Source: an uncultured Dehalococcoidia bacterium (GTDB lineage: Bacteria > Chloroflexota > Dehalococcoidia > Lucifugimonadales > Australimonadaceae). Taken from it: a stretch of DNA of 64,000 nucleotides. Shown piece after piece: positions 17,929 to 48,200 of the stretch. A program made the translations under genes and the position numbers. The DNA lies in assembly GCA_958295525.1 (NCBI GenBank), contig OY282355.1:2227931-2291930 (forward strand), written 5' to 3'. Position 1 is the stretch's first letter, and each line of letters begins with the position of its first letter. The notes under the pieces are model-generated. The model saw only the letters and a list, made by a program, of their open reading frames with translations. It did no database searches and was not told where the DNA came from.

Positions 17929-19674
17929 CTACGCCAAATGATGCAGCCCCGGCCGCTTTCCCTTCACAATCCATTCGTCATAGGACTCGCGATAGCCCAA
18001 TTGCGCTGCGCTTTTCGCCAGACGCCGCCCTTTCGCCCTGTCGCCTGCTAGGAACGCGCAATGCGCGGCCAAATCCAACGCTATGGCATGGTCAGGTTGC
18101 TCTTGGAGCGTCTTCCCTAGGGCGTTCAAGGCTCCGTCCAAGTCTCCCACGCGCAGGCGCGCAACGCCCAAGTTAAACGCCAAGTGAGCGGACAAGGATT
18201 CCGATGAGGACGCCATTCCCTCCAAATGCTCGTGCGCTTCCTGGTCGCGGCGGGCGTTCAGCAGAATGATTCCGACTTCTACGCGAGGCATTTCCCAGCC
18301 GGGGCTGAGGCCTGCCGCTATCCAGCACTCTTGGATTCCCTCCTCAGCGTCCCCTGCATCCCACGTCTTTCCAAGAGTCCCGCCGAGTTGAAAGTGATAA
18401 TCGGGGTTCTCGGGCTGGAGTTCAACGGCGCGCCGGACATGAATGAGGGCTGTAGGCAAGTCGCCTTCTGATCGCGCTTGCGCGAATTGAATCATCCGGT
18501 TGCGCGCGCTGTACTTGGCGTCGCCTTTGATCCTAAAGAGAGTTGCGCCTTCAGATTGAGGCGGCAGCCGGGTCGGGTCAGCCGGCACGTCACGCAATGC
18601 AGCGTTCAGTATCTCGCGCGCCGCTTCTTCCGGTATTCCGTATTCCTGCGACACTTGACGCACGACCTCGTCGTGGCCTCCGAGGCTCTGGGCGATATGC
18701 GAGAGGCGCAAATGCCACGGTTTGGACGCCGCCATCAGTTCCGTCCGCCATACGGCGTCATCCTCCAGGCGCCAGAGATGTTTCAGGAGATGAGGGCTAA
18801 CTATGAATTGCGCTCCCAGCGCCAGAACGAAAAATTGTCGCTGCATAGCATCGTCATAAGACAATTTGCTGAACTGCCTGAGGCCCGACAGGTTGCGGCT
18901 TATGAATCGCGTGAGCGCCGCCGCGAGATATTCAACCGTCTCGCGCCCCACATGCTCTGCGAGCAGATTGCAGACGGCGCCAAGCGCGTAGCGCAGGTGA
19001 AGTTGACCGGCAAGGGAGCGAGCATCGGCCTGTGGGATGCGCTCTGCGAGGACTTGGGCGACGCGCTCTATGTTGGCTCGTTGGGGCATAGACCTTCCAG
19101 CTAGCCAGTTGTCTACGGTGTTCTCGTCTACGCCTATTGCCTCCGCCAACTGGCTGCGGGTTGGGCGCGCCTTGCCGCATTGATCGAGAAGTTGCTTCAG
19201 GCGCGCTGCGAATCCGTTGTCCTTGCTCCACAGGGGAGCGTCTTCGCTGGGCGTAGGGAGTTCCGCCAACATATAGACGGCTGAAGCCCGAAGAGCCAAG
19301 TCCACGACCACCAGTCTGAGGTAGGAGGCTGCGGCCAAGTCAGGTCGGTCCACATGTGCGGACACGCTCCGCATGTAGCCGACGAGGTTGTCCCATTGCT
19401 CGGCGTGCCAAGCGATCAATAAGGAGACTACCCGCGGAAAGGGGACTTGGCTCTTTTCGAGGAAAGGAGACGGCGGAATGACGCCGAGGTCGAGGAGTTC
19501 CCGGCCAATGGCCGTGAAGATTTCGTGCTTGGCGAACTGCGTGACCGGCTCGCCCCTGAAGTAGCGTCTCGCGGTTCTGCGGTTCAGCGCTTCGTCTTGA
19601 AGGCGCAGCGCGGTGACCGCTGTTCCGATGATCTGGCCGCTGAGCGGGGCTGCGTATGGCGTTCTCGTTGCCAT
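17929..19674 (-). CDS. HTH and TPR protein of unknown function
   Basis: This 581-residue protein has no family I can name. Residues about 172-212 form an XRE-like helix-turn-helix (SQLAEAIGVDENTVDNWLAG). A second helical, HTH-like region lies near 20-45. The middle is helical and contains many Arg/Leu. The C-terminal part (about 390-570) contains TPR-type repeats (DLPTALIHVRRAVELQPENP, DLDGALNALGKTLQEQPDHA). There is no signal peptide or membrane segment. It is less GC-rich than its neighbours and contains CATG, which they avoid, so it is probably a late insertion between the two mutase subunit genes. It could be a regulator or scaffold responding to peptide binding. Confidence 0.65.
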   Translation of the reverse strand: MATRTPYAAPLSGQIIGTAVTALRLQDEALNRRTARRYFRGEPVTQFAKHEIFTAIGRELLDLGVIPPSPFLEKSQVPFPRVVSLLIAWHAEQWDNLVGYMRSVSAHVDRPDLAAASYLRLVVVDLALRASAVYMLAELPTPSEDAPLWSKDNGFAARLKQLLDQCGKARPTRSQLAEAIGVDENTVDNWLAGRSMPQRANIERVAQVLAERIPQADARSLAGQLHLRYALGAVCNLLAEHVGRETVEYLAAALTRFISRNLSGLRQFSKLSYDDAMQRQFFVLALGAQFIVSPHLLKHLWRLEDDAVWRTELMAASKPWHLRLSHIAQSLGGHDEVVRQVSQEYGIPEEAAREILNAALRDVPADPTRLPPQSEGATLFRIKGDAKYSARNRMIQFAQARSEGDLPTALIHVRRAVELQPENPDYHFQLGGTLGKTWDAGDAEEGIQECWIAAGLSPGWEMPRVEVGIILLNARRDQEAHEHLEGMASSSESLSAHLAFNLGVARLRVGDLDGALNALGKTLQEQPDHAIALDLAAHCAFLAGDRAKGRRLAKSAAQLGYRESYDEWIVKGKRPGLHHLA

Positions 19675-21786: not shown

Positions 21787-22302
21787 ATGCTTCGCAGCCT
21801 CGGCGGGAAGAGCCCGCAAGTCCACCCGACGGCGTTCGTCAGCGAGTTCGCCTACGTCATCGGCGACGTCCGCATCGGCGCCTACGCATCCGTCTGGCCC
21901 GGCGTCGTGCTCCGCTCCGACCGGGGAACGATGACGATCGGCGAGGGAACGAACATTCAGGACGGCTCCATCTGCCACGCCGACGGCGATCTGACGATTG
22001 GAAACTACGTGACGCTCGGCCACGCGGTCGTCTGCCACGCGGAGCGCGTGGGCGATCACTGCCTGCTGGGGAACAACTGCGCGCTGAACGACAAATCGTC
22101 GGTGGGCGATTGGTGCATCGTGGCGGCGGGCGCCGTGCTGCTGGAGGGGCGGAGCGTCCCGGACGAATCAATCGCCGCGGGCGTTCCGGCGAAAGTCATC
22201 GGCCCGATGACTGGCAAGCACTACGAACTCGTGAAGATGAACGCCGACGAGTACGTGCAGTTGGGGCGGCAGTACAAGGCGGAGGGCGGGTTGGAAGGTT
22301 AG
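21787..22302 (+). CDS. Gamma-class carbonic anhydrase family protein
   Basis: Left-handed beta-helix protein of 171 residues with hexapeptide repeats ([IV]GxxxxI-type turns from about residue 24 to 130), expected to form a trimer with metal at subunit interfaces. Candidate metal ligands are the His residues in SICHADGD, LGHAVVCHAE. The short C-terminal helix (TGKHYELVKMNADEYVQLGR) fits the YrdA/CaiE-like subgroup, in which carbonic anhydrase activity is not always present. The start has a GGAAGGAG site 5 bases upstream. It is divergent from the mutase gene. Confidence 0.85.
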   Translation: MLRSLGGKSPQVHPTAFVSEFAYVIGDVRIGAYASVWPGVVLRSDRGTMTIGEGTNIQDGSICHADGDLTIGNYVTLGHAVVCHAERVGDHCLLGNNCALNDKSSVGDWCIVAAGAVLLEGRSVPDESIAAGVPAKVIGPMTGKHYELVKMNADEYVQLGRQYKAEGGLEG

Positions 22303-22335
22303 GGGGCAGAGGGGCGCCGCAGGGAGGCGGCGCGT

Positions 22336-23544
22336 TCAGCGCGCGCCGCGCGCCTCCGCCTTGACGAAATTGCCGATGTCGGAGAACACGGGCGCAGGGC
22401 GCCCCGCCTCTTGGAACAGCCGCCGCGCCGTCGCTATCCCGACGCCGAAACGCTGCACCAAGCCCATCGTTCGCATCGCCTCCGCGAGGTTGGGGTTCCG
22501 GTAGTCGGTTACGCCCGGCACGCCGAAGTTCTCCTCGTTGACGCTCCCGTAGAGACCCCCGGGGCTGATCACCTCGATCCGGTCGGCGAACCACGTCACC
22601 CGCACCGGGGCGTTCGTCGCCTCGTAGGCGCGGTGCATCACGGCGTTGCGCGTGATCTGCTGCAGCGCGGCGACGGGATAGAGGCTTTCCCTGCGCTCCG
22701 TGCTCGCGGACGTCAGATCAACGGCCACGCGATTGTGGGAAATCAATTTATCGTCCAAACGGCGCAGCACGTCCAAGACCGCTCCCTTCGCCTCTTCGCT
22801 GTCTATGATCGGGTCGGAGAGTTCCGTTCCGTCTATTCTGAGGAACAACGCATAGGCTCCGGGAATGAAATCTTGCGGGTTCTTGCCGAGAACGAGCAGT
22901 CCTAGCACGGTCGGCGTCGGGTCGTCGGGAGAGGCGATCATTTTCAACGACGCCAAGCGTTGCTCCCGAGTCCGGTCGTTCGCCTCCAGCACGTCGGGCG
23001 CGAACGCCTGGGGGAGGTAGTCGTTTTCGAAGAACGTCAGGTTCAGGTCGCTCATCTTCGCGGAAGGGATGGGATCGAGGTCGAAAGGCCGTTGGCCGTG
23101 CCGCCTGCGCTCGTTGAGAATGCGCTCGTCCTGCTCGGTCGCAACGCCGCGCCGCGAACCCGTCCGCACGTGTATCCGGCCTCTGCAGCGCACCGGCGGG
23201 GAGTCCGACGGCAGCACGGCCATCACGGCGACCTCGCTTCCGGCCAGTAGGCGCTTCTCCACGAAAAGGGACGGCGGCGGCACGATGTTCCCGTCCGTCT
23301 TGACGTCGGCCAACTGACGGAGCAATTCGTCGGTCACCGGCTCGCCCGTTGGCGACCCGTCGTTCCGGACGCCGACGAACACCACCCCGGGCAGGCCGCC
23401 GCCGGGGAGGTCGTTGGCGAACGCGCACGCCGCTTCGCGCACGGCGTTCGCCGCGCCTCCGCTCAGCGACTCCTTGAACTCGACGCGATGCGACTCGCCG
23501 CCCTGCAGCAGCCGCAGCAATTCGTCGTCGCTAGGAATGGCCAT
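22336..23544 (-). CDS. AlbA_2 (Schlafen-type) domain protein with C-terminal HATPase_c_4-like region
   Basis: The 402-residue protein begins with the AlbA_2 nucleic-acid-binding signature (ESHRVEFKESLSG, residues 17-29, then FANDLPGG and VGVRNDG). A middle region carries VLGLLVLGKNPQDFIPGA, and a C-terminal ATP-lid-like region has ITRNAVMHRAYE and PGGLYGSV, then PNLAEAMRTMGLVQRFGVGI. This architecture is shared with putative transcriptional regulators and with proteins of defence islands. The gene lies 23 bases downstream of the RAMA nuclease gene on the same strand. Function unknown. Confidence 0.8.
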   Translation of the reverse strand: MAIPSDDELLRLLQGGESHRVEFKESLSGGAANAVREAACAFANDLPGGGLPGVVFVGVRNDGSPTGEPVTDELLRQLADVKTDGNIVPPPSLFVEKRLLAGSEVAVMAVLPSDSPPVRCRGRIHVRTGSRRGVATEQDERILNERRRHGQRPFDLDPIPSAKMSDLNLTFFENDYLPQAFAPDVLEANDRTREQRLASLKMIASPDDPTPTVLGLLVLGKNPQDFIPGAYALFLRIDGTELSDPIIDSEEAKGAVLDVLRRLDDKLISHNRVAVDLTSASTERRESLYPVAALQQITRNAVMHRAYEATNAPVRVTWFADRIEVISPGGLYGSVNEENFGVPGVTDYRNPNLAEAMRTMGLVQRFGVGIATARRLFQEAGRPAPVFSDIGNFVKAEARGAR

Positions 23545-23567
23545 CGGGCGCGCTCCGCCGTCGTCCT

Positions 23568-24608
23568 CTAGGGTTGTCTGCCCCTACGCCTCGAATTGTT
23601 GGCCTTCATATCAGCGGCGTTGGGAAGGTCTTTGATGGACTTCCAGCGTCCGGTTTGTTCGTCGTAGTATTGCCAAGCCCGCCAGCCCATGATGTGGATG
23701 TATTTCCCCAATGCGGCCTTGCATGCTCCTCCCGGCGCGCGTGGCGTTCCGTCCGGCAAGCGCACGAAGCCGTCGGATTGCAAGACCGCGTTGTACTCAG
23801 CCCCCTTATACTTCCAACGGACGGGGACCTCTCCTGCGTTGATCTGCGCTGAAGGCGTGGATGCGCTGGGAGCCCCTGCCGCAGGGGTCGCTGGACGCTG
23901 GGGTTGGGGGCTGGGCAACCCCAAAAAGTCGCGCGCGACCTCATGGACGATGGGTGTGTAATAGTCGAGTTGGTCGCTTCCCGCGCCAACCTTGTCCATA
24001 AGCAGGCTGACCAGGCCGTCGGAAGGGTTAGTCAACTCCTCTTGGAGCCTCGACTTTATAGCCGTTCTGCGGTTCCTGAGGTCTGCCCACTTCTCGATTC
24101 CCTCTGGATTGAAATCCTCCCGGGCGAACATTGCGAGGAGGTGGGCTACGTCGGAGTCTTCCGCAGGGTTGCCCCGCTGGAGGTCAACCGTAAAGAACGG
24201 CTCGGTTTCCATGTACCGCTTGTCGGTGTCCAGTTTGTAAAAGTGGTAGCCCAGCCCGTTGGTGCAGATGCCGAAACGAGCCGAACGGGTTCCATGGAGG
24301 TAGCCGTTCAGCTGCTCGACCGCTCCTGCCAACGAGCTGTCCGCCGATTTCGCTTCGACGACCACTAAGGGTTGCCCATTTTGCATGAGCGCGTAGTCCG
24401 CTTTGTTTCTCGTTCCTCTTCCCCTAACGTCTGCGATGTTCTCAACCACCACTTGAGTCGGAATGCTGGGGTCGTAGTTGAGGACATCCCGCAGGAAGGG
24501 GTCTATGAGTGCGATTCTGGTGCGCGCCTCTCCCTCGCGTGCGTATGCCGTGTGCACTCCCACCCGCGTTTCGATATGTCGCCGGATGCGTTCGCTGATG
24601 CCGTTCAT
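23568..24608 (-). CDS. PD-(D/E)xK nuclease-like protein (HsdR_N_2) with C-terminal RAMA domain
   Basis: The 346-residue protein starts at ATG 24608, which has GGAGGGAG 5-12 bases upstream; an ATG 15 bases further up lacks this. Residues 1-140 resemble the N-terminal nuclease domain of type I restriction subunits, with D71 and the E85-x-K87 pair (LVVVEAKS) as catalytic candidates. After a Pro/Ala linker, residues about 262-330 (VPVRWKYKGAEYNAVLQSDG to MGWRAWQYYDE) match the RAMA domain, associated with restriction and modified-base recognition. With the AlbA_2 gene it forms a two-gene unit. CATG occurs at least five times (23688, 23722, 24210, 24293, 24384), unlike resident genes, suggesting acquisition. 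Confidence 0.8.
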   Translation of the reverse strand: MNGISERIRRHIETRVGVHTAYAREGEARTRIALIDPFLRDVLNYDPSIPTQVVVENIADVRGRGTRNKADYALMQNGQPLVVVEAKSADSSLAGAVEQLNGYLHGTRSARFGICTNGLGYHFYKLDTDKRYMETEPFFTVDLQRGNPAEDSDVAHLLAMFAREDFNPEGIEKWADLRNRRTAIKSRLQEELTNPSDGLVSLLMDKVGAGSDQLDYYTPIVHEVARDFLGLPSPQPQRPATPAAGAPSASTPSAQINAGEVPVRWKYKGAEYNAVLQSDGFVRLPDGTPRAPGGACKAALGKYIHIMGWRAWQYYDEQTGRWKSIKDLPNAADMKANNSRRRGRQP

Positions 24609-24732
24609 ACGGACTCCCTCCATCGGGGTGAGGTCTACGGCGGCAATCCTAGCACGCCTGCGGCGGACGCGGCAACGCGAAGGCGGCGCTGGGGGGACAG
24701 CGGGACGTTAGCCTGCCCGCAGCGCCCCGGCC

Positions 24733-24741
24733 TGCTATACT
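24733..24741 (+). promoter_or_regulatory. Extended -10 promoter of the aminotransferase-serA operon
   Basis: TGCTATACT lies 99 bases upstream of the ATG at 24841, which itself has a perfect AGGAGG ribosome binding site 5 bases upstream. No -35 box is evident. Confidence 0.55.
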
Positions 24742-24840
24742 CTGAGCGGCGGCGGGCGCTCGCGCCTTGCCGCGCTTACGACCGCGATTCCCGTTCGCCC
24801 GCCCCGCGCGCGGCGGACGGCATGCCCATAGGAGGCATTG

Positions 24841-25950
24841 ATGGCCAACCTGCGATTGCCCGGCCCGACGCCCGTCCCCCCGGACGTGTACGAGGCGATG
24901 AGCAAAGAGATGATCGACCACCGGGGCGTCGAGTTCGCCGACATCATCCGGCGGACGACCGCGAACCTGCAGCGCGCGTTCCAGACCGCCAACGACCTCT
25001 TCACCCTCACGTCGTCCGGCACCGGCGCGATGGAGGCGGCGGTCGTCAACACGCTCTCCCCCGGCGACCGCGTGCTGGGCGTCACCATCGGCAACTTCGG
25101 CGACCGCTTCCTCAAAATCGCCGCCGCCTACGGCGCGAGCGTCAACGAACTCAAGTTCCCCGACGGCGACGCCGCCGACCCGGAGCAAATCCGGCAGGCG
25201 CTCCGCGACGACCCCGCCGTGACCGCCGTCCTCGTGACGCACAACGAAACCTCGACCGGCATCACGAACGACCTCGAGACGATCGCCGGCATCGTGAAAG
25301 GCGAGTTCGGCAAGTTGCTGCTCGTGGACGCCATCTCGTCGCTCGGCTCCATCAAGTTGCCGGTGGACGAGTGGGACTTGGACGTCGTCGTGGCCGGCTC
25401 GCAGAAGGGTTGGATGTGCCCGCCGGGGCTTGCGATGATCTCGTTCAGCGAGCGCGCTTGGAAGGCGGCGGAGGCGTCCACAATGCCCAAGTTCTACTTC
25501 AGCCTCGCCGAGGCGAAGAAGTCGCTTGACGCGGGGCAGACGCCCTGGACGCCGGCGGTCTCGCTCCTGTTCGGCCTCGACCACGCCGTGCAGCGGATGC
25601 TGGCGCGGGGCGATATGGAGGCGGTGTACGGCTTCCATCAGGAAATCGCCCAGTACACGAGGGACGGCTTGCGGGCGATGGGCATCGGCCTCGTCGCCAA
25701 AGACGAGCGGCGCGCTTCCAACACCGTCACCGCCGCGTGGGTTCCCGACGGAATCACCGACGAGGCGCTGCTGGCGATGCTCCGCGACGAGTACGACATC
25801 ATCGCGGCGGAAGGGCGCGGCCTCCTCACGGGGCGCGTGTTCCGCATCGGGCATATGGGCTACGTCAGCACGGAAGACATAGACGACGTCTTCGCCGCGC
25901 TGCGCGACGCGCTCCCCAAGTTGGAGCGCTCGCCCGCCGCAGTCGGCTAG
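24841..25950 (+). CDS. Class V aminotransferase (serine-pyruvate/alanine-glyoxylate type)
   Basis: PLP-dependent transaminase of 369 residues with the Lys that holds PLP at 189 in VVVAGSQKGWMCPPG, the SSGTGAME phosphate-binding loop at 58-65, and RIGHMGYVSTEDI near the C-terminus. Its position 16 bases upstream of serA suggests that it supplies the phosphoserine or serine transamination step, as class V enzymes do in several phyla lacking a typical SerC. It may instead act on glyoxylate. The ATG at 24841 was chosen because of the AGGAGG at 24830-24835. Confidence 0.88.
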   Translation: MANLRLPGPTPVPPDVYEAMSKEMIDHRGVEFADIIRRTTANLQRAFQTANDLFTLTSSGTGAMEAAVVNTLSPGDRVLGVTIGNFGDRFLKIAAAYGASVNELKFPDGDAADPEQIRQALRDDPAVTAVLVTHNETSTGITNDLETIAGIVKGEFGKLLLVDAISSLGSIKLPVDEWDLDVVVAGSQKGWMCPPGLAMISFSERAWKAAEASTMPKFYFSLAEAKKSLDAGQTPWTPAVSLLFGLDHAVQRMLARGDMEAVYGFHQEIAQYTRDGLRAMGIGLVAKDERRASNTVTAAWVPDGITDEALLAMLRDEYDIIAAEGRGLLTGRVFRIGHMGYVSTEDIDDVFAALRDALPKLERSPAAVG

Positions 25951-45299: not shown

Positions 45300-48200
45300 T
45301 CACTCTTCGTCGGGGATGCCTACCCCGATGACGCCTTGTATGAGCAGCTCAGTGGTTACGGCTACCGATCTGAGTTGCTCTTGCGCCATCAGTTTACCCT
45401 CAATTTCAGCCTCGGCGTTGCTGATCTGCGTCTCCCGCATCCGCCGGATGCGGTCATCCGTGGCTTCGCTGCGCCATTCCTCCAATCGTCCTCGCTTGAC
45501 GAGGTAGGTGCGCCTCAGAGCAGCTTGCCGCCTGTTCACAAGTCGATCGTTACGCTCTTTTACTTTCCGTTCAACGGCATCCCGCTGCGCTTTTATAGCA
45601 TCTCGCCCGTATTCCTCGTATATTGGCCAATTATCGGCATCTGTAACGTGTACAGGGTGCGGGCCATTCCATTGAGCGGTTTGCCATAAGTCCGCGAATA
45701 AGCGGCTGGCTAAAGACTCAATCGAGTCTCCGTTATGCTCGTTGAGCACGACAGCCGCTAACTCGGAACGAGATTCAGCGGCTGTTATGTTAATCCGGTA
45801 AATGAAGAACGGGTACATTCCCGCTGGCCATTCAGAGTCGGTGATTTTGACGAGCGGCAAGTTGTTCACGCTTGTTTCAGCCTCAGGTATACGGCTCGCA
45901 GCGAACTTAATGAGCGGATGGTCGAAATTGACGAGATGACATAGTTCTCGCTGGTGAGCCAACTCGCCAGTAAAGGTCAACGGGACACCATTTTCGTCAA
46001 GGTTTGCCAACAACCTTGTGCGAACTTCGTGTGGAATTCGCAAACTGCTTGTCGGCCCATTAGCCACGCAAAAAGCGGCAATATCATGCCGCAACACAGG
46101 CGTTGATCGCAAGAAAAACGAGCCGTCTCCGTTATTTTTAAGGCTCGTATTATATCCATATAAGCCAGCCTCCAGCACTGCTCGCAACTCGTCTGCGCCT
46201 AAATATCGGCCAGTTTCAACACGGCCGTCACGTTCTTGTCCAAGCAGTATGTCCTGGCCCATCAGTTCTTCTTCTATCTGTTCAAATTCTTTTTGGTCAG
46301 ACTTTCTTACTTCCAACGAATTCAGTATCTGTTCACGTATCTCTTCTTCTTGGTGAGGCGTGAGGCTACTGGTAAAAAGAGTGCGTGTAAGATTTTCAAT
46401 TATATCTCCAAGTATAGGTTCAAGTTCTCCGATGGACTCATGGAAAACCCGGATGCGTTCGTAGAGGCGCCACAGTATTCGTTCTTCAACTGTGTTCTGG
46501 ATGATGTAGGAGTAAATCCTGACTTTCTGGCTTGGTTGACCATATCTGTCGATACGGCCTATTCGCTGCTCTACCCGCATGGGGTTCCACGGCAAGTCAT
46601 AATTGAACATAATGTCGGTAAACTGGAAATCGAGTCCCTCAGCTCCGACTTCCGACATCAGTAACACTGAGAACCCATTAGACTCTTTGAAGCGGTCTAT
46701 GATGCGTGGCCGGTCGTTAACGCCTACGTCTCCGTCTAAACGATATACCCCCCCATTAATCCATGCCGATTCACCGGATAGTCGACTGTGCAAGTAGCGC
46801 AGTGTTGCCTTGAAAGAAGAAAATATGAGCACCTTGGCGCTGGAGTTATCTGCGTGGACTTCGTGCAGCCCTTCTAAAAACCGCTCTAGTTTGGAGTCCT
46901 CATTACCGATTTCCGCAGTGAGGCTACGGATGCGACGTTGCAATTGAGTGTGGCTTTCGCGCGAATCGCGAGGCTGGTCGGGAACGTATGGATCTTCGTC
47001 AATCTCAACGTCGTTTTCTTCGTAACCTATATCCTCTTCTATCGCATCCTTGAGCAGCACTTCCACTGCCGCCGGGAGACAACTCGTTATCTGCCGTTCT
47101 CGCGTTACAAGAACAAACCCGGGTGGAGTTGACTTGTTGGCAGAGAAGTACTGTGCCTTGGCGTACTCGATCAAACTATGGTACAAATCCAATTCTTTCT
47201 CAGTCATGCTGACGCTGATAACATAAGGTTCGCGCATAACATTGCCTTGAACGTCACGCTTGCGCGTCCTATTAACATGGCTGTTTAAGGGGCTCAATGT
47301 AGAAAGACTCCTCTTAATTTGGACAAATTCTGCCCTATCCAACCTTTCGCCAATGCTGAGGCGATGCACAACATCTTCGTATTCAGGATATTCTGTGATT
47401 TGCCTTCCGATTGGAGAACTTGCAAGAGACTTCAATTCATTCAGGCAGTCTTGCTGTTCATTTTCTTCTCTTCCAAGCGCGCTCATAGCCATATTCAACA
47501 CCGACACCGGAGCGAACAATTCATTCATTATTTGCATATTGGGGAATTCACCTCCGTCGAGAACATGGAGAAGGTTGTAGAGATCCGCTTGATGGATATT
47601 AATCGGAGTTGCGCTGAGCATCAGCATCGCTTCTGCATGATTTGATAGCACAAGTCCTACACGATGCATCTGTGTGCTTTGGTTTCTCAGATGATGAGCC
47701 TCGTCAATGATTACCAAGTCAAAATTGGCTCCGACTTCTTCCATCCGCTCTCTGATAGAGGCATCACGGATAATTTCCATTCCGATAACTCCAAATATAC
47801 TACTAGCGTCTTGATATATTTCGTAGGCATCCAGGAATTCCATGAACTTAGCCTTGTTCAAGTCTTGCAACGGCTCATTAAAGCGGCTGCGGAATTCGCT
47901 AATCCACTTGTCACGGAGTCGGGACGGGCAAACGACCAAAACCCTCTTCATGAGGTTTCGGGCCTTCATTTCCAAGAAGATGATACCTGCTTCGATGGTC
48001 TTTCCAAGCCCGACTTCGTCCGCGATGAGCAAGCGGTGGCTCGCGCTATCGAGGAACTTCGCGGCTGGCCTAAACTGATAGGGTTCCACCTGAGTTCGCG
48101 ATGCGAGGTAAGAGTAAAGCACATCGTCGAACCCTGCCCGCATTTTCGTAAGCGCGAGGTTCCGCATCAACTCGGGCCGCCCAACCAGCCTGATGGGCAA

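Follow-up and report, generated by a model that had tools for sequence, protein, structure and literature searches.

An HsdR_N nuclease gene with a RAMA-like domain and a Schlafen-type AlbA_2 gene as probable independent arrivals in a chromosomal cargo hotspot

The two genes described in this study are probably defence-type accessory genes that were acquired independently into one cargo hotspot, and not a conserved two-gene system. The first (23568..24623, minus strand) encodes a 351-aa PD-(D/E)xK nuclease of the HsdR_N class with a RAMA-like C-terminus, as evidenced through its ORF, Pfam matches and conserved catalytic residues, and the second (22336..23544, minus strand) a 402-aa protein that joins a Schlafen-type AlbA_2 domain to a GHKL ATPase domain (HATPase_c_4), as evidenced through its ORF, Pfam and fold matches. 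In the window, by which the whole 64,000-nucleotide stretch of DNA that was analysed is meant, the genes share a strand with the nuclease gene first, a gap of 23 bases between them (23545–23567) and neighbours concerned with metabolism or transport (methylmalonyl-CoA mutase, a hexapeptide gene, an aminotransferase, PGDH and ABC transport genes), an arrangement that the original prediction had described correctly. A defence role is inferred for both genes, and the association with defence proposed earlier agrees with the mobile or defence flavour of both families. What is novel here is the HsdR_N nuclease with a RAMA-like domain and the AlbA_2 gene without a ParA; the kinds of gene themselves are known.

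The neighbourhoods of homologues were compared for conserved pairing, and throughout the sample the homologues were never paired, the outcome that the original prediction had named as its own refutation; the two-gene module is thus not supported. No AlbA_2 gene was found alongside the nuclease in 15 loci of the same order or in 80 viral loci, and 82 distinct loci of AlbA_2 orthologues (∼50–67% identity) held neither a match to the window nuclease nor an adjacent orphan HsdR_N gene. The HsdR_N family profile matched one large ORF across these AlbA_2 loci (L074, 2.4e-6), which is probably a full HsdR. Among 197 sampled genomes of the order, which like all those behind the pairing counts are a fraction of the genomes that exist, a nuclease-like match occurs in 53, an AlbA_2-like match in 32 and both in 23, and the two genes are adjacent in only one of these 23, the window genome; the next closest pair on one contig lies ∼83 kb apart (G126).

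That the genes form a lineage-specific defence operon, with modified DNA cut or sensed by the RAMA nuclease and an AlbA_2 protein that serves it as RNase back-up or regulator, is therefore unlikely. The shared strand, the short gap and the nuclease-first order would suit such an operon, as would the occurrence of both families in defence or mobile contexts, but the pairing has no second case among the sampled loci and genomes, the composition of the two genes differs, and AlbA_2 has another conserved partner, a ParA. Since the genes are co-directional and so closely spaced, they may be co-transcribed, and cooperation may have been acquired in the window lineage.

The difference in composition is seen in two measures. 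The nuclease gene contains six CATG sites (5.7/kb) and the AlbA_2 gene none, against a window mean of 1.4/kb. As CATG is rare throughout the window, with 90 observed over positions 1–64000 against 232 expected from trinucleotide counts, and as many core genes also have none, the AlbA_2 gene is the normal one and the nuclease gene the outlier. The GC3 of the nuclease gene is also atypical, at 0.713 compared with a window mean of 0.854 (SD 0.060), whilst that of the AlbA_2 gene is 0.854. These findings agree with the earlier observation that the nuclease gene appears foreign by its CATG content and the AlbA_2 gene does not, and they support the separate histories suggested for the two. The shortage of CATG over positions 1–64000 may in itself point to a restriction system in the host. 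Elsewhere in the window, an ORF at 46236–46664 has a GC content (0.448) and GC3 (0.573) that are unusually low for the window and is possibly foreign or not a gene, and a 581-aa ORF at 17929–19674, which adjoins a gene for a B12-binding protein, has no Pfam match at 1e-6.

Comparison with relatives suggests how the two genes came to be neighbours. The slot that they occupy (22303..24837) lies between the hexapeptide gene (21787–22302, plus strand) and a class V aminotransferase gene (24838–25950, plus strand), two genes that lie side by side in most members of the family. In five relatives and outgroups (G018, G135, G131, G123, and G113) the interval is empty and measures 104–248 bp, and the empty slot is therefore probably ancestral. 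Four sister species carry other cargo at this position: a HicB/HicA-like pair in G096, the same pair together with an HsdR_N nuclease with a different C-terminal domain in G106, and MazF (PemK, 85 bits) in G147. In G070 there are several genes, including MazF-like and HicB-like ones and a RAMA-like fragment. The HicBA genes of G096, G106 and G070 were read from sequence, the HicB-like protein of G096 having no Pfam match. Within the genus the slot takes up cargo repeatedly and is no isolated insertion, the window pair being one more of its states. Over the HsdR_N part, the G106 nuclease is ∼40% identical to the window nuclease, compared with ∼89% for the flanking proteins, which points to either different acquisitions or one fast-changing gene with a swapped domain. 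The RAMA-like fragment in G070 is a 170-aa ORF (L132:4989-5501) without a nuclease domain, ∼38–43% identical to the RAMA part of the window protein, and looks like a remnant.

The nuclease domain (aa 20–139; 24207..24566, minus strand) matches Pfam HSDR_N (1.8e-10; 41.4 bits against a cut-off of 25.1) and HSDR_N_2 (3.7e-7), both above cut-off, and lies largely within the confident part of the structural model (∼aa 30–235), which resembles BpuSI, DrdV and the HsdR of EcoR124I. The catalytic residues D76, E90, K92, and Q104, as well as K74 and Y108, are identical in all 53 aligned nuclease relatives. With HSDR_N above cut-off and the D…ExK…QxxxY residues present, the protein belongs to the orphan HsdR_N family. 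A type I HsdR was considered and ruled out by the length of 351 aa, a nuclease domain standing alone with no helicase or translocase, and no HsdM or HsdS nearby. Beyond ∼aa 235 the protein does not match eight relatives from the order in the alignment, and the RAMA-like part is found there instead; as the common C-terminal domain is absent, the window nuclease is a variant of the family, assigned by its nuclease domain.

The RAMA-like domain (aa 261–323; 23655..23843, minus strand) scores 20.0–21.8 bits, below the Pfam PF18755 gathering cut-off of 35.2, and is for this reason named RAMA-like only. The same HsdR_N and RAMA layout is present in a 410-aa protein of the same phylum (L143), in which RAMA reaches 49.3 bits, above cut-off. 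The model is not confident in this region (pLDDT mostly < 60), with a very weak 31-residue match to the RAMA structure of mouse MPND (7ydt, E 1.1). Taken with the layout of L143, this makes the RAMA label a reasonable one. Of the domains originally predicted, therefore, the HsdR_N nuclease and the AlbA_2 and HATPase domains are above Pfam cut-offs, but RAMA is not. Relatives combining HsdR_N and RAMA were scarcely found among the sampled sequences, L143 being the one clear case; matches to the RAMA region in G539, G374, G514, G568, and G354 were not upheld as RAMA nucleases on reading.

Relatives of the nuclease are common in temperate phages, with 18 phage records and 226 viral matches, the latter obtained with an alignment as the query. 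A direct back-translation search of GTDB and viral contigs found no close relatives. Annotated phage examples place the nuclease gene within the lysogeny region, in many cases flanked by the repressor and integrase genes, an exception being a Porphyromonas phage in which it follows HicAB near structural genes. The phage loci examined comprised 80 viral loci (L181–L260), together with L263, L264, L178, and L265. Within 3 kb of the nuclease gene, a repressor-like HTH gene was present in 70 of the 80 viral loci and an integrase gene in 35, compared with 33 and none, respectively, of 80 terminase control loci. This position is typical of genes expressed in the lysogen, and would fit a function in phage exclusion. 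A literature search on HsdR_N in superinfection returned nothing relevant. The concentration of orphan HsdR_N nucleases in temperate phages at a classic site for exclusion genes, beside the repressor and integrase, is of interest in its own right, and so is the finding that a RAMA-like reader can take the place of their usual C-terminal domain.

The second protein carries an SLFN_AlbA_2 domain at residues 17–131 (23152..23496, minus strand; Pfam 45.2 bits, cut-off 25.3), with E17, E22, and K24 identified by alignment, and a HATPase_c_4 match at residues 312–395 (22360..22611, minus strand; 62.2 bits, above cut-off). The structural model has a mean pLDDT of 89; its N-terminal part resembles the tRNase domain of SAMD9 (Z 9.3, rmsd 4.0, 142 residues) and Schlafen11 (Z 8.6, rmsd 5.1, 122 residues), and its C-terminal part has fold matches to GHKL ATPase domains. 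The catalytic Glu-Glu-Asp of SLFN13 consists of E205, E210, and D248 (PMC5862951), and the five-residue spacing of E205 and E210 is repeated by E17 and E22, which are kept in 41 of 42 aligned rows (the remaining row has a gap). The third acid is present in the window protein as D62 and is not invariant, with D in 30 and N in 9 of the 42 rows. The fold matches and the kept glutamates make RNase activity likely, if unproven, with the variation at position 62 counting against it. Close orthologues occur in only 2 of 393 sampled genomes of the class, a rarity that fits horizontal transfer; a search of viral contigs found no close relatives. Matches to SIR2-pAgo in PADLOC were discounted because they spanned no more than a part of large fusion profiles, and neither PADLOC nor NCBIfam assigned a system to the nuclease or the AlbA_2 gene.

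The usual partner of AlbA_2 is not a nuclease but a ParA/Soj-like ATPase (∼345 aa, AAA_31), encoded directly downstream on the same strand in 64 of the 82 orthologue loci (L052–L131 and L032–L034, with L053 left out as the same record as L032), the other 18 being solo. The AlbA_2 and ParA genes overlap by 4 bases in 23 of the 32 pairs that were checked. By record label these pairs are spread over 14 phyla, although labels of metagenome bins may err, as with one named Klebsiella. No ParA-like ATPase gene adjoins the AlbA_2 gene in the window, and a search of its own genome, a single contig of 2.5 Mb, gave no match to the partner ParA, this search having no positive control. In the maximum-likelihood tree the window protein falls inside a clade of 33 rows (99/94) with 20 ParA-paired and 12 solo rows, and the nearest rows by path are two ParA-paired and one solo, all from Chloroflexota. 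This nesting among paired rows suggests, as the simplest history, that the window lineage once had ParA and lost it. The partner ParA matched PDC-M28B in PADLOC, but over only ∼41 residues at the P-loop, too short a stretch to count it as a member. In three loci of the same order, a protein of ∼104 aa is encoded downstream of ParA (L034:8437-8751 and L033:4759-5184, for example), with a weak match to a PADLOC HNH model (7.9e-7) and none in Pfam.

Restriction-like helicase, methylase or DUF499 genes lie within 5 kb in 10 of the 64 ParA-paired loci, against one weak match in the 18 solo loci, counts that do not amount to independent enrichment because some of the queries were drawn from those same loci. 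The clearest example has the order HmaA, AlbA_2, ParA, HmaB with overlapping ORFs (L096:1414-10197). The literature searched, which did not extend to a preprint on bacterial Schlafen proteins (10.1101/2025.07.24.666596), contained no account of a ParA-Schlafen pair, and AlbA_2-ParA may be an unnamed system. A broader proposal, that AlbA_2/GHKL and ParA form a widely transferred and as yet unnamed two-gene immune module in which ParA controls the Schlafen RNase, and that the window gene is a derivative of it without ParA, next to a nuclease of prophage type retargeted by RAMA, is put forward tentatively. The AlbA_2-ParA pair is a better lead than the pairing of nuclease and AlbA_2, which looked plausible but is probably wrong.

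The absence of ParA could also be read as decay, the pair being mostly debris of earlier systems, with ParA lost and the C-terminus of the nuclease replaced, and functionless now. The RAMA-only fragment in the slot of a sister species does indicate decay there, but both window ORFs are intact, their catalytic and nucleotide-binding residues are retained, and a Poribacteria clade maintains solo AlbA_2 genes in a shared gene context, making this explanation improbable. More doubtful still, to the point of being very improbable, is that neither gene has a role in phage defence, the AlbA_2/GHKL protein being an ordinary regulator and the nuclease serving in housekeeping or repair. The metabolic flanks and old plasmid annotations, which call such proteins ‘transcriptional regulator’ or ‘RecG-like’, would suit this reading. 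Against it stand the patchy distribution in the class, the turnover of cargo seen in the slot, the prophage lysogeny regions in which the nuclease family sits and the Hma loci that surround AlbA_2-ParA.

If the two are independently acquired defence genes, the RAMA-like domain of the nuclease would most likely recognize the modification state of DNA, after which the PD-(D/E)xK centre would cut incoming DNA. The AlbA_2 domain would most likely cleave RNA, with tRNA-like substrates, and so arrest the infected cell; nucleotide binding by the GHKL domain would gate this RNase, and ParA would normally help to control it. With ParA missing, the window protein would either act alone, as seems to be the case for around one-fifth of its relatives, or be left over from an AlbA_2-ParA pair.

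Among known systems, the window protein shares with bacterial Schlafen-type AlbA_2 and GHKL proteins the two domains, the SLFN glutamates, and the folds of SLFN11/14 and the SAMD9 tRNase, but differs in having no C-terminal wHTH, in lying outside any BREX or BREX-related locus, and in the absence of its ParA partner. Over its whole length the model matches DIP2311 of Corynebacterium diphtheriae (PDB 3lmm; Z 23.2, 362 residues, rmsd 10.8), which at 583 aa is longer and ∼20% identical, a likeness at the level of fold. Hma loci are BREX-related systems, and RNases of the Schlafen family that carry a minimal histidine-kinase domain have been reported near such loci (PMC12839542); some AlbA_2-ParA relatives are embedded among their genes (HmaA helicase, HmaB DUF1156 methylase, DUF499 ATPase), whereas none of these genes adjoin the window pair. 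RAMA-Mrr-NTPase and GIY-YIG-RAMA fusions have been described, and nucleases fused to RAMA are proposed to be modification-dependent, or type IV-like (PMC11037411). The window nuclease similarly places a nuclease and a RAMA-type reader within one chain, but is of the HsdR_N class, has no NTPase, and has a RAMA score under the Pfam cut-off. In its nuclease part the protein resembles the widespread orphan family annotated as ‘type I restriction enzyme HsdR N-terminal domain-containing protein’ in bacteria, plasmids and temperate phages, with which it shares the catalytic core, a length of ∼350 aa and the lack of a helicase; most members of this family have another C-terminal domain without a Pfam name, whereas that of the window nuclease is RAMA-like.
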